Source of the DNA: Nitrospinota bacterium
GTDB lineage: Bacteria > Nitrospirota > Nitrospiria > Nitrospirales > UBA8639
DNA length: 38,915 nt
Direction: 5' to 3'
NCBI GenBank assembly: GCA_022572725.1
Contig: JACZVJ010000016.1
Coordinates: 1 to 38,915, forward strand
Both the position numbers and the translations under genes were made by a program. The notes under the pieces are model-generated. The model worked only from the letters and a program-made list of their open reading frames with translations, searched no databases and was not told where the DNA came from. Of this stretch, positions 16,424 through 24,608 are shown in pieces (the stretch's first letter is position 1; every line of letters starts with the position of its first letter).

Positions 16424-17671
16424 GTGGCCCCTCTCATGACCCAAGAAGAAGCCCGTGCATACGTAAATTATCTGTTTACCCTGAGCCTCCGACGGGAGGA
16501 CGCATTTGGTCCATTGGCCATAACCTTTTTGCGAGAACATGACTTGAGCCAGCTTGGGATCATACCGGAAGAACAATTCAACCTCCTGTTCGCGACCGTC
16601 CAGGCCTTTGCTGCCGAGCCGAAACGATACTCCATCAAATTAGAGTTATTGCAAAAAGCCCGCCAGCTCCTGCCATCGACGCGCTTCTTTGATCCTGAAT
16701 TAGACAGGCAGTTAGACCACGATATTAGGAAAACCAATGCCGAGTTATCCATTTATAATGAGGCCATGAAGGCACCCCGCGGGCAGACGGTCGAAAAGCA
16801 GCGTCTCATTGTCGAGACCGACGTTCCTGAATATTTTTTGGATATCGCCCAAAGACGTGCTGCTGCATATTATCAAGCCAAATATCGGTTAACGAAGGAA
16901 GCGAAAACCGCCCAGCATTTTGGAGGAGCACCTCGTCGGTTTGAACCAGATAATTTGGCCCTTCACAAAGAGTTTCCTGGGGCCTGTGCCCCGTTCATGA
17001 CGGCCCGAACCAATGCCTTCCACATGATGCTCCCCTTTGATTTAAAAATCAGCCGCACACCAGAAGACCCCCTAGAAGCAGGGGTGAGAGTTTTTTATGG
17101 CAAAATGGGGTACTCCTATCCGCTCCGGTATGAACTGGGAAAGCTGTGTAGTTATCACGATGGACAGGTCTATGATATTCCCCTAGAGGACCCCAACCTG
17201 ATTTTCGTGTCGGTTTCTGAAGTGAAGGATCGGGAGTTTCCTGCTAAATCCCTTCAACATTCGGAAGATGTGCCGCCAGAATTTGCATACTCGTTGGCGA
17301 TCCTGGAGCATACAGGGAGCTTGGGCCCATTTATTCAGATTAGCTGCAATTTTAAGGTATGGTTTGATGCCTCGGTCGTGTCGCTCTTAATTCAAGGGGC
17401 TCCTGACCTTCATGAGTACGGACTCCAAGGAGGGTCGGGCCTGATGACGCGATCTTATGCCTCCGATAAAGTTCACACCTATGTGGAAGCCCAGTCCCAA
17501 CCCTGGCAGGAAGGCCTCAGTTTTAACTTCGTCAATATGCACCTTCAAATAAGTCCAGGGGCCAACACGGCCTTTGTTCCGCATAGTACGCCAATTTTTA
17601 CAGTCTATCCGGTGCTCAATCGTCAGTGTTACAAATTCGAGGAACGCCAGCAGCTCGGAGAGAGCCAGTAG
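16424..17671 (+). CDS. Conserved-looking protein of unknown function (415 aa)
   Basis: I do not recognise the family. The reading frame is long, open, and has codon use like its neighbours, so it is a real gene. No signal peptide or membrane helix is seen; it looks cytoplasmic and soluble. Residues 1-100 are helical and charged; the middle is of mixed composition with HKEFPGACAPFMTARTNAFHMM. The C-terminal two thirds is rich in beta-type segments (GVRVFYGKMGYSYPLRYELG, LIFVSVSEV, FIQISCNFKVWFD, THYV-like aromatic strands). Start is a GTG at 16424 or ATG at 16436 (MTQEEARAY); neither has a good ribosome-binding site. It stands alone between divergent and downstream genes. Confidence 0.72.
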   Translation: MAPLMTQEEARAYVNYLFTLSLRREDAFGPLAITFLREHDLSQLGIIPEEQFNLLFATVQAFAAEPKRYSIKLELLQKARQLLPSTRFFDPELDRQLDHDIRKTNAELSIYNEAMKAPRGQTVEKQRLIVETDVPEYFLDIAQRRAAAYYQAKYRLTKEAKTAQHFGGAPRRFEPDNLALHKEFPGACAPFMTARTNAFHMMLPFDLKISRTPEDPLEAGVRVFYGKMGYSYPLRYELGKLCSYHDGQVYDIPLEDPNLIFVSVSEVKDREFPAKSLQHSEDVPPEFAYSLAILEHTGSLGPFIQISCNFKVWFDASVVSLLIQGAPDLHEYGLQGGSGLMTRSYASDKVHTYVEAQSQPWQEGLSFNFVNMHLQISPGANTAFVPHSTPIFTVYPVLNRQCYKFEERQQLGESQ

Positions 17672-19606: not shown

Positions 19607-21661
<2,055 letters not shown>

Positions 21662-21679: not shown

Positions 21680-23575
21680 TTATCCCTGGATGAATTGTGC
21701 TGCGTAACTGCGGATTTCGTGCCCATTGAGAATGTGAAAACGACGAAGCCGAGCTACGGTTTGCCCTGAAAATCTGGACAAGGGAATGGGAATGAGTTTC
21801 CGGTGGAAACGTCTCGTAATTTGACGCCAACGAGCTACAGGAGGAATGGGCGAAACGAATGCAATGTGAGACTCTCGGGAGTGGGAGGCTGCTCCTGCAA
21901 TCAGGCGCTCCTCCAGAGTTTGGGCAAAGTCCAAGCGGGGATCGTCCCAGATGTTAGGAATAGGCCTTGGGGGGAAGAGGAACATCGCGCCCCCATACTG
22001 GGACTGGCCGATCCCAGGACCGATCATGCTTTCAAGAAACGGGGTGGCGAAAAAACATAAAGTTGATTCTTCTGCGTGCTCAGCATACCAAGTTGCTTGC
22101 CAGGAAAATTTTGAGGGATCCGCGGGTACCTCAAATAAGAACACCACAACCTCGACTGTCCCCCGAGACGGAGGAATGTCCTTCACGTAAATATCCGGCC
22201 GTCCCTGGTTTGATTGTGGTTTCCAATGTCGGAGAGTTTCTCGCAGATCAATGCCGTCTCGCATCGAGGTGGTGAACTTGTCGACCCGAGCCAAGTCCGT
22301 GCCCAGAAGCGCCCGTGCCTGTTCACGGACATGTGCGGAAAATCCTTCAATTCGACCATCTTCTGGAGGCCATGAACACTGTCCAAACGGATTCCATCGA
22401 TAGGCCCACTGGCGTTTCTTTGCCTGGGGTGGTGCTGGTCTCAGGGAAAGAGATCGCCAAGTAAGTGGTGGCCCTTGGAGCCGATTCTTCCCGTGAGAAA
22501 CTTCCCCATCTGGGGATTCCAATTGATTGATACCCACTTCGTAGCAGGGAAATCCATAAAGGGAGGTCGCCTCTTCTTGGAACGCATAGGATTTAGCCGT
22601 CTCCAGGAGAGTGATGGCAAAGTCATCCCCCATGATTTGTTTTGCGGCCAGGACCAATGTGTAGAGATCGGGGATCAAGCGGTGTTCGAGCAAGGCTAAA
22701 TTCCGTACGTATTGGAGATACGTTTGGAGTAGCTGAGGGGTCACCCAATTGTGTTCCTGTGCAAGATCAGCATGGCGTGTTGACAGCCACCGCTTTCGAG
22801 ATTCGATGAGAAGTTCTTTGATGCCATCAACGGAAAGATGCTCATCCGAGCGCGCCTCCACCCGACGTTGCTCGAATAGTTCGGTCAAAAAAGGAAGTTC
22901 GCATAGGGTAAAGTATAAGGTCGAGGGAGAAACGGTGCTAAGAAAGGGTAAGCCATGAATAGGTTCCGGTTGATCAAACGACCAGTGTTCTCGATAGGCG
23001 TCTCGAAGCCAAGGCCAATCCTCCACTGGACAGACACACACAATCGACTCGTAGTCCAGTTCTAGCTCATGCAGTTTAAATGCCATCCATTTCACACGAC
23101 GCCACCGTTGGCTGCCAGGCTTGGGGTAGGGCATAAAAGGAAGAAGGCCTGCAAAAAAGCTTGGGAGGGAAACGTGCTTGAGCGAGTAGGGATCTGGGGC
23201 CGGGTAAGTGGTAGGCTCGAAAACCGTCACTTCTCGGTCTATATAGGCCCGGTCCATGCCCTCACCCATCGCGACTCGAATAGCCATGATGACCGGCTGA
23301 CAGGGATCGATGGGCACAAAATTCTGCACAACAATTTCTTTCTGATCGGGTTCGGGCAGGACCACGAGGCTGACCTGAGGGAGCCGTTCAACACCCTGCT
23401 CCACTAGCTCTTCTACCGATGGAGGCAAGGGAACGGCCAGGCACTCAGCTCTTTTGGAAAGGAGGATTTCCCGAATGCCTTGCGCCACATCCCCACTCCC
23501 ATGCCGAATGGGCAGTATTCTGATCTTGGCGGAAAGCTGGAAAACCGTCTCAGCGGTTTGCGTGAGGGGTTTCAT
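21680..23575 (-). CDS. DUF5682-like protein, probable partner of the adjacent MoxR ATPase
   Basis: 631 residues, soluble, no signal peptide. The N-terminal region opens with IRILPIRHGSGDVAQGIREI, then LVEQGVERLPQ and FVPIDPCQPVIMAIRVAM...DRAYIDREV. This order (short strand, RH motif, then a strand with 'FxPID..P' and 'xxIDREV') resembles DUF5682/TraB-like proteins that sit beside MoxR ATPases. I call it similar, not certain. The middle (about 130-330) is helical with many Trp. The C-terminal part (about 400-631) has a strand TVEVVVFLFEVP and an SWQATWYAEHAEESTLCFF segment. No vWA MIDAS motif (DxSxS) is seen. It lies 85 nt downstream of the AAA+ gene and 33 nt before ligA. Confidence 0.6.
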   Translation of the reverse strand: MKPLTQTAETVFQLSAKIRILPIRHGSGDVAQGIREILLSKRAECLAVPLPPSVEELVEQGVERLPQVSLVVLPEPDQKEIVVQNFVPIDPCQPVIMAIRVAMGEGMDRAYIDREVTVFEPTTYPAPDPYSLKHVSLPSFFAGLLPFMPYPKPGSQRWRRVKWMAFKLHELELDYESIVCVCPVEDWPWLRDAYREHWSFDQPEPIHGLPFLSTVSPSTLYFTLCELPFLTELFEQRRVEARSDEHLSVDGIKELLIESRKRWLSTRHADLAQEHNWVTPQLLQTYLQYVRNLALLEHRLIPDLYTLVLAAKQIMGDDFAITLLETAKSYAFQEEATSLYGFPCYEVGINQLESPDGEVSHGKNRLQGPPLTWRSLSLRPAPPQAKKRQWAYRWNPFGQCSWPPEDGRIEGFSAHVREQARALLGTDLARVDKFTTSMRDGIDLRETLRHWKPQSNQGRPDIYVKDIPPSRGTVEVVVFLFEVPADPSKFSWQATWYAEHAEESTLCFFATPFLESMIGPGIGQSQYGGAMFLFPPRPIPNIWDDPRLDFAQTLEERLIAGAASHSRESHIAFVSPIPPVARWRQITRRFHRKLIPIPLSRFSGQTVARLRRFHILNGHEIRSYAAQFIQG

Positions 23576-23660
23576 ATATTTTTCTACCAGACTGGGCCCT
23601 GGGAAGTCTTATCCTCGGCGAGCAAGACTAGTCTTTTTAGGCTTTGAGCCGAACCGCGAT

Positions 23661-24608
23661 TTACCGGTCAGGATGCAAGGGATCGTCTGGTTCAAAAAAG
23701 AAATCCCCGAGACCTCTTGGAACGGATTGTCCCCCAATCACTCGTTTCCGTTGACGGGAGACCCCTTCAAGGTCCAAGGCTTCTTCTCCTAAGACCTTAA
23801 TGAGTGCCTCCCGCCACACCTTATCCCGGGAAATCGGATGGGAAGGATCCTGAGCCAATCGCTTGAGCGCAAACTGCAAAAGATGAATCCCATCTCGAAC
23901 CGAATACCCCAAGTCCAGATGATGCGCCTCTTGAAGAAAGTCTGCGGTCAGGGTCAAGACATCCTGCGGTGCAAAGGGAAGGTGATACCGAAGGATGGCC
24001 ATTTCATGGTCCCGAGTCGGAAATTCCACTTTCAAACTAGGTTGTAGGCGAGAAAGGATGTAATCGGGCACTTCGTAAGTGGATGCATCTTCATTCATGG
24101 TGACGCAACAGCGAAAATCCTGGTGTGCCTGGACCTGAATTCCGGCAATGATGGATTCCACGTATCGCCGATGATCCAACAGGGGCGCGAGGGAAGCCCA
24201 ACTCTTTTCGTTCATGCGGTTACCTTCGTCTAAAAGGCAAACTCCGCCGGTTAGCATCGCCGTAACGAGTGGTGAGGCGTGATAGGCAATGGTCCCACCC
24301 TCGGCAATGACTGGAGTAATCAGAAGATCCTCGGGTCGGGTGTCAGCGGTACACTGGTACATGTACAGCGCTTGCTTGCGTTCTCGCGCTGCGGACATGG
24401 CGAGAGTCGTTTTCCCAATTCCAGGATACCCAAGAATTCTGGGACAGAGTGGGACATCCTTTTGATCAATGACCATCCAACAGGCGAGAAGCTGCTGAAG
24501 AACCTCCCGGTCACCAATCCATTCTTGATCTGCAAGGCTTGGCTGGCCCAGACGAAGAGTGACCCCTTCCACGTTGAGGGTCCTGAGGCTTTCGGAACCA
24601 GTGCTCAT
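23661..24608 (-). CDS. MoxR-like AAA+ ATPase
   Basis: 315 residues. Walker A is [12 protein letters not shown] (about 59-70), Walker [13 protein letters not shown] (about 126-137), sensor 1 VTMNEDAS (about 170-177), and an arginine-finger region [13 protein letters not shown] follows. The DEGNRM form and the order 'MEDL-type PEDLLITP...LLDE.NRM...[13 protein letters not shown]' fit the MoxR/CbbQ/RavA branch of AAA+ chaperones, which remodel protein complexes together with a vWA or other partner. No partner vWA gene is here; the next gene, a DUF5682-like protein, is the likely partner. First gene of a possible three-gene run with ligA. Confidence 0.85.

Follow-up and report, generated by a model that had tools for sequence, protein, structure and literature searches.

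CbbQ and NorQ are MoxR-type ATPases whose partners are vWA proteins. The E. coli genes yehL-yehM-yehP-yehQ, in this order, form a cluster of the MoxR-DUF5682-vWA type, and a SWIM-domain gene is a further feature of clusters of this kind. MoxR ATPases are generally found together with a vWA cofactor and act like chaperones in the maturation of specific complexes (PMC3893208), and there are also ternary conflict systems in which they are joined by a vWA and a third component (PMC7159879). The TIKI enzymes carry a conserved 2His/2Glu site, and a member of the TIKI superfamily that lacks this site was reported to have no endopeptidase activity in one assay (PMC6254334).

Our study examined a locus within a stretch of DNA of 38,915 nucleotides, hereafter the window, in which genes for a MoxR-type ATPase and a partner protein precede ligA on the same strand (Table 1). 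The original prediction had seen in the first two genes a possibly undescribed ATPase module of two proteins that works without a vWA protein. In agreement with this, we found the pair to recur as a real two-gene unit in several phyla, where its members are adjacent, co-inherited and absent together, and no protein-family library names or describes it.

The locus and its recurrence across phyla

The ORF list and a motif check agreed with the original description of three ORFs, their order and the Walker motifs. Walker A (GYPGIGKTT) and Walker B (LLDEGN(RM)) were both found in the window ATPase, which passed the curated cut-off of PF07728 (AAA_5) with 68.8 bits against a threshold of 22. The ATPase and partner ORFs in the window are separated by 85 nt, and the partner is separated from ligA by 18 nt if the start of the longest ORF is taken, or by the originally predicted 33 nt if the second ATG (21646) is taken. 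On the strand of the three genes, no terminator-like sites were found between them in the window, outside ligA itself, and from this layout the ATPase, partner and ligA may be transcribed as one unit. No Rfam families or tRNAs were found in the window. A 415-aa protein encoded elsewhere in it (16424-17671, + strand) occupies the same locus in Nitrospirales genomes at 69-78 % identity and had no match in Pfam, NCBIfam or PADLOC.

Table 1. Features of the ATPase-partner locus, with positions in the window
Feature	Position	Strand	Length and evidence
MoxR-type AAA+ ATPase (AAA_5), P0002, first gene of the pair	23661..24608	-	315 aa; AAA_5 6.2e-19
Partner protein P0001	21680..23575	-	631 aa; no family match above cut-off
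Partner N-terminal TraB/TIKI/DUF5682-like domain, residues 1-241	22853..23575	-	hhalign, fold match, residue counts
Partner helical middle and C-terminal alpha/beta region	21680..22852	-	conserved motifs
ligA, NAD-dependent DNA ligase	19607..21661	-	684 aa; PF01653 7.2e-87

Among 60 related genomes, the partner was found in 37 and a high-similarity ATPase in 34, and the two sets of genomes agree except for four: G018, which has a partner remnant only, the ATPase being gone; G009, which has a partner and no detectable ATPase in a genome that is 78 % complete and has masked bases near the locus; G055, which is a fragmentary genome; and G007, which has a distant ATPase. In a scan of genome contigs, 169 loci were confirmed as related, and 80 of them were retained. 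The ATPase adjoins the partner at 55 of the 57 loci from Nitrospirota and at 21 of the 23 loci labelled as Planctomycetota, Latescibacterota and allied candidate phyla, Gemmatimonadota or Omnitrophota; the genes farther out vary. Two of the four non-adjacent loci lie on contigs that end close upstream of the partner. The MAGs labelled Gemmatimonadota fall within Latescibacterota in the tree and may be misnamed. Planctomycetota ATPase loci, which were fetched separately, had the partner directly downstream in 13/17 cases and lacked it within a few kb in 4/17. ATPase orthologues that adjoin a partner come from several phyla and show 63-83 % identity, and in Nitrospira proper the two ORFs either touch directly or share one base. 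The original prediction would have failed had the pair occurred elsewhere only by chance and with varied neighbours; instead, the pairing recurs across phyla.

The ATPase and partner trees are congruent, in that their patristic distances were correlated (r = 0.96, 42 pairs), a value reached by 0 of 2000 Mantel permutations, and they have 22 of 39 splits in common. Because the shared ancestry of the genomes feeds this correlation, the unit is supported more strongly by adjacency and joint absence. Outside Nitrospirales, no constant outer neighbour was common to all loci, in a clustering that is blurred by phantom ORFs in GC-rich loci.

No vWA gene was found in the neighbourhood of the pair in the window and none recurred at the other pair loci. 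VWA_CoxE (PF05762), the one vWA family searched genome-wide, was absent from the genome that carries the window, and a vWA protein from a different family may still act in trans. A MIDAS motif was not detected in the partner, and a hidden vWA domain in its C-terminal half was considered and rejected (hhalign against 21 vWA sequences, P = 0.27). These results bear out the original statement that no vWA protein is present at the locus.

The partner protein and its presumed active site

The partner had no Pfam match and nothing over the cut-off in NCBIfam or PADLOC, and no relatives of solved structure were found for it by sequence. PF18934 (DUF5682, gathering cut-off 26 bits) gave no match to the window protein or to any of 44 members, and the partner is thus not a member of PF18934; a divergent relative, P0003, reached 16.3 bits, below that cut-off. 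The partner family was compared with nine DUF5682 proteins by hhalign, using 40 column shuffles and a reversed query as controls. Residues 13-191 aligned (P = 2.8e-5) with a raw score of 46.6, against 28.2 for the best of the 40 shuffles, and the reversed query gave P = 0.5. When the family HMM was run on the ORFs of DUF5682 loci and of other fetched ATPase loci, it matched, besides its own family, only DUF5682 proteins, and these weakly (E 0.006 to 0.9).

The AlphaFold2 model of the whole partner had a pLDDT of 80, and the N-terminal domain modelled alone had a pLDDT of 91. Searched against a viral library, the whole model had a single match at E ≤0.001, to a protein of the TraB family (probability 1.00, E 8.8e-4); the next matches had a probability of at most 0.44. 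A PDB fold search with the whole model and with the N-terminal domain alone returned no match at E ≤0.001, including no solved TIKI-fold structure, and the weak matches to histidine phosphatases and a Tetrahymena complex IV subunit (TM-scores about 0.1-0.35) were dismissed as noise. Intermediate sequences were also found: P0003, which comes from another Nitrospirota family and is encoded near an ATPase orthologue, has sub-threshold DUF5682 and traB matches, and the distant relative L273 has sub-threshold TraB_PrgY_gumN and DUF5682 matches at its GxxH motif. From the controlled profile comparison, the TraB fold match and the intermediate sequences, the assignment of the partner N-terminus to a remote domain of the TraB/TIKI/DUF5682 type appears well supported, with the predicted homology to DUF5682 being remote and confined to residues 13-191. 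The DUF5682/TraB-like N-terminus of the original prediction, which the profile and structure searches could have overturned, therefore stands as a remote likeness, although not as a match to PF18934 itself.

The residues of this domain that match the TIKI set are, by position and motif, presumably catalytic in the family. In 13 relatives with intact motifs, these residues are nearly invariant (H25 12/13, E49 13/13, D93 13/13, E97 13/13 and H186, at the end of the GxxH motif, 12/13), and H25, E49, R160 and GxxH are each present in 9/9 of the DUF5682 proteins. The window clade, counted over 45 members, retains H25 in 40, and has E49 in 0/45, D93 in 0/45 (Q in all), E97 in 0/45 and H186 in 2/45, one of these two being the Omnitrophota sequence L103; it still has D113 in 44/45 and R160 in 45/45. 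The window partner itself reads P instead of E49, Q instead of D93, M instead of E97 and PxxD instead of GxxH. Only four fixed differences (E49P, D93Q, G313Q and D484P) separate the window clade from the intact relatives, in a count that compares 11 of the 13 and depends on the thresholds used. Because the window clade is monophyletic in the tree, with high support, and has the motif-intact L266 as its sister, E49 would most simply have been lost in a single event at the base of the clade. The partner of the window clade may retain some activity, H25, D113 and R160 being near-universal.

Two further loci depart from this pattern. At L271:2918-7265 (G218), two diverged TraB-like partners, each of about 705 aa, lie in tandem after a distant ATPase of the pair type; they have VDLP instead of VELP and lack GxxH, possibly a second loss of the motif. 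At L194:6280-8140 (G007), a related ATPase adjoins a short TraB-like protein of 325 aa, in which VELG and CGMAH are intact and the C-terminal half is missing.

The C-terminal half of the partner matched no family. It holds the motifs CSWPPED, S..DG(I/L)D.RETLR, TWYAEH.EES and GPGI...YGG, which are common to motif-intact and motif-lost relatives and rank among the best conserved parts of the protein, and it is probably the part that the module cannot do without. Within TWYAEH.EES, E499 and E503 are conserved, usually together with H500.

Possible roles of the pair

Taken together, we see about an even chance that the pair is a two-protein machine, in which a vWA-less MoxR-type ATPase works with a pseudo-enzyme partner that was ancestrally hydrolytic and now serves as a client adaptor or co-chaperone. 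The ATPase would assemble into a ring and act with its dedicated partner. The ancestral TraB-like domain would have acted as a hydrolase on a peptide or ester bond of a client presented or remodelled by the ATPase, and in the window clade this domain would be a non-catalytic domain for client recognition. The partner, probably a client adaptor of the ATPase, would then take the adaptor or co-chaperone place that vWA proteins fill for other MoxR ATPases. On a broader reading, which we hold tentatively, the pairs would constitute an undescribed class of AAA+ machine in several phyla, combining a vWA-free MoxR-type ATPase with a TIKI/TraB-fold partner. This partner, formerly a hydrolase, would have become a pseudo-enzyme adaptor a single time, in the ancestor from which the present clade in Nitrospira and other phyla descends.

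The original prediction had also suggested that the pair may act with DNA ligase in replication or repair, perhaps by remodelling DNA or replication proteins, and a same-strand trio of ATPase, partner and ligA is indeed conserved throughout Nitrospirales, with short or overlapping junctions. However, the flanks of the trio are also conserved there (LysM/trp genes diverge from it upstream, and a CorC-like gene converges on it downstream), and the adjacency is restricted to this order: ligA is beside the pair in 0/23 loci from other phyla and is absent too at the Nitrospirota locus L081. Nine Nitrospirales genomes lack the pair; their gene order is LysM, ligA, CorC, and no trace of the pair was detected in between. 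Since G018 has a partner remnant and no ATPase, the pair was lost at least there, gain and loss not being told apart in the other pair-less genomes. Furthermore, the LigA that adjoins the intact pair of G010 shares only 40-42 % identity with the usual LigA and is the sole LigA match found. As ligA persists without the pair, and a foreign ligA adjoins an intact one, ligA was rejected as a functional partner; the proposed remodelling role is unsupported, and joint action with the ligase is extremely improbable. The adjacency is best read as inherited gene order, historical and dispensable, and ligA was judged to be a conserved Nitrospirales neighbour that lies outside the module.

The ligA position showed a separate peculiarity, as the usual LigA of three genomes, all from one genus, has apparently been replaced, at the same chromosomal position, by a foreign LigA of 39-42 % identity (L283:8179-10944 in G010, L197:7396-10122 in G018, and L277 in G032). 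The open frame of the foreign LigA is above 900 aa, compared to 684, with a long C-terminal extension that has little or no Pfam match.

Other explanations give the pair a different task. The strong conservation of the C-terminal motifs, in motif-intact and motif-lost relatives alike, would suit a partner that is still an enzyme, with a catalytic site at E499, E503 and usually H500, a TraB-like domain that is only regulatory, and an ATPase that activates or feeds it. We consider this unlikely, as no known enzyme fold or family was found for the partner, conserved glutamate and histidine residues can be structural, and H500 is not present in all intact relatives (K in L262). Maturation of a metal enzyme or respiratory complex, as carried out by CbbQ/NorQ-type MoxR ATPases, is suggested by the nearest solved relatives of the ATPase by sequence, which include CbbQ and NorQ besides midasin, and by its nearest NCBIfam model, GvpN, which scored far under the cut-off. 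However, no oxidoreductase is a constant neighbour outside Nitrospirales, and the window partner lacks similarity to vWA proteins such as those that accompany CbbQ and NorQ, so that this role seems quite improbable. It is highly unlikely that the pair serves as a conflict system, whether against phages or otherwise: Nitrospirales copies are well conserved at one chromosomal locus, unlike mobile, diversifying systems, recurring defence genes were not seen beside the pair, and PADLOC models gave only weak P-loop matches, whereas the patchy distribution, the repeated joint absence, the span of distant phyla and the precedent of ternary MoxR-vWA systems (PMC7159879) would fit such a system. Identity with a known anti-phage defence system was rejected, as no PADLOC model matched.

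Whichever place the partner holds, our study describes a family of ~630 residues that is new to the libraries, occurs in nitrite-oxidising Nitrospira and other phyla and is tied to a vWA-less MoxR-type ATPase. For the reading of the partner as a pseudo-enzyme adaptor, the motif-intact and motif-lost versions of one pair are a natural comparison between an enzyme-like protein and a pseudo-enzyme on one ATPase, and they make the contribution of the partner testable.

Comparison with described systems

A DUF5682 match was found in E. coli. At DUF5682 loci an ATPase ORF was often directly upstream of DUF5682, and vWA-type ORFs with a DxSGSM motif were close to DUF5682 in 5 of 11 loci. One Singulisphaera genome (G325; L166 and L087) has, apart from the pair locus, a DUF5682-like locus that includes an ATPase and a vWA-like ORF. 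The MoxR-DUF5682-vWA clusters (PF18934) and the pair have the same layout, with the ATPase directly upstream of a protein whose N-terminus is DUF5682-like (residues 13-191 in the partner), and the H25, R160 and M164 positions are common to both. However, the window and the other pair loci lack the vWA gene of the DUF5682 and yeh clusters, the ATPase of the pair is weakly similar to that of DUF5682 loci, and PF18934 does not match the partner. The window clade has also lost the glutamate and the GxxH motif, and the C-terminal half of the partner is unrelated to DUF5682 by the tests made.

The MoxR-vWA ternary conflict systems (VMAP, iSTAND, FtsH and beta-propeller types; PMC7159879) resemble the pair in joining a MoxR ATPase to an additional conserved component, although they include vWA and variable effectors, whereas the pair has neither vWA nor effector domains and holds a fixed locus in Nitrospirales. 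The RavA-ViaA and CbbQ/NorQ pairs are closer in organization, as a MoxR-type ATPase and one dedicated partner are encoded next to each other, but in the window partner neither a vWA domain nor a MIDAS motif was detected. The TIKI/TraB/PrgY/ChaN/EreA superfamily (PF01963, TIGR00261) may share its fold with the partner, as the predicted match to a TraB protein suggests, and its VELP and CGMAH motifs are kept in relatives of the pair. The window clade differs from this superfamily in lacking the Glu and the second His, and the partner adds to the TraB-like domain a large C-terminal half and a tie to an ATPase.
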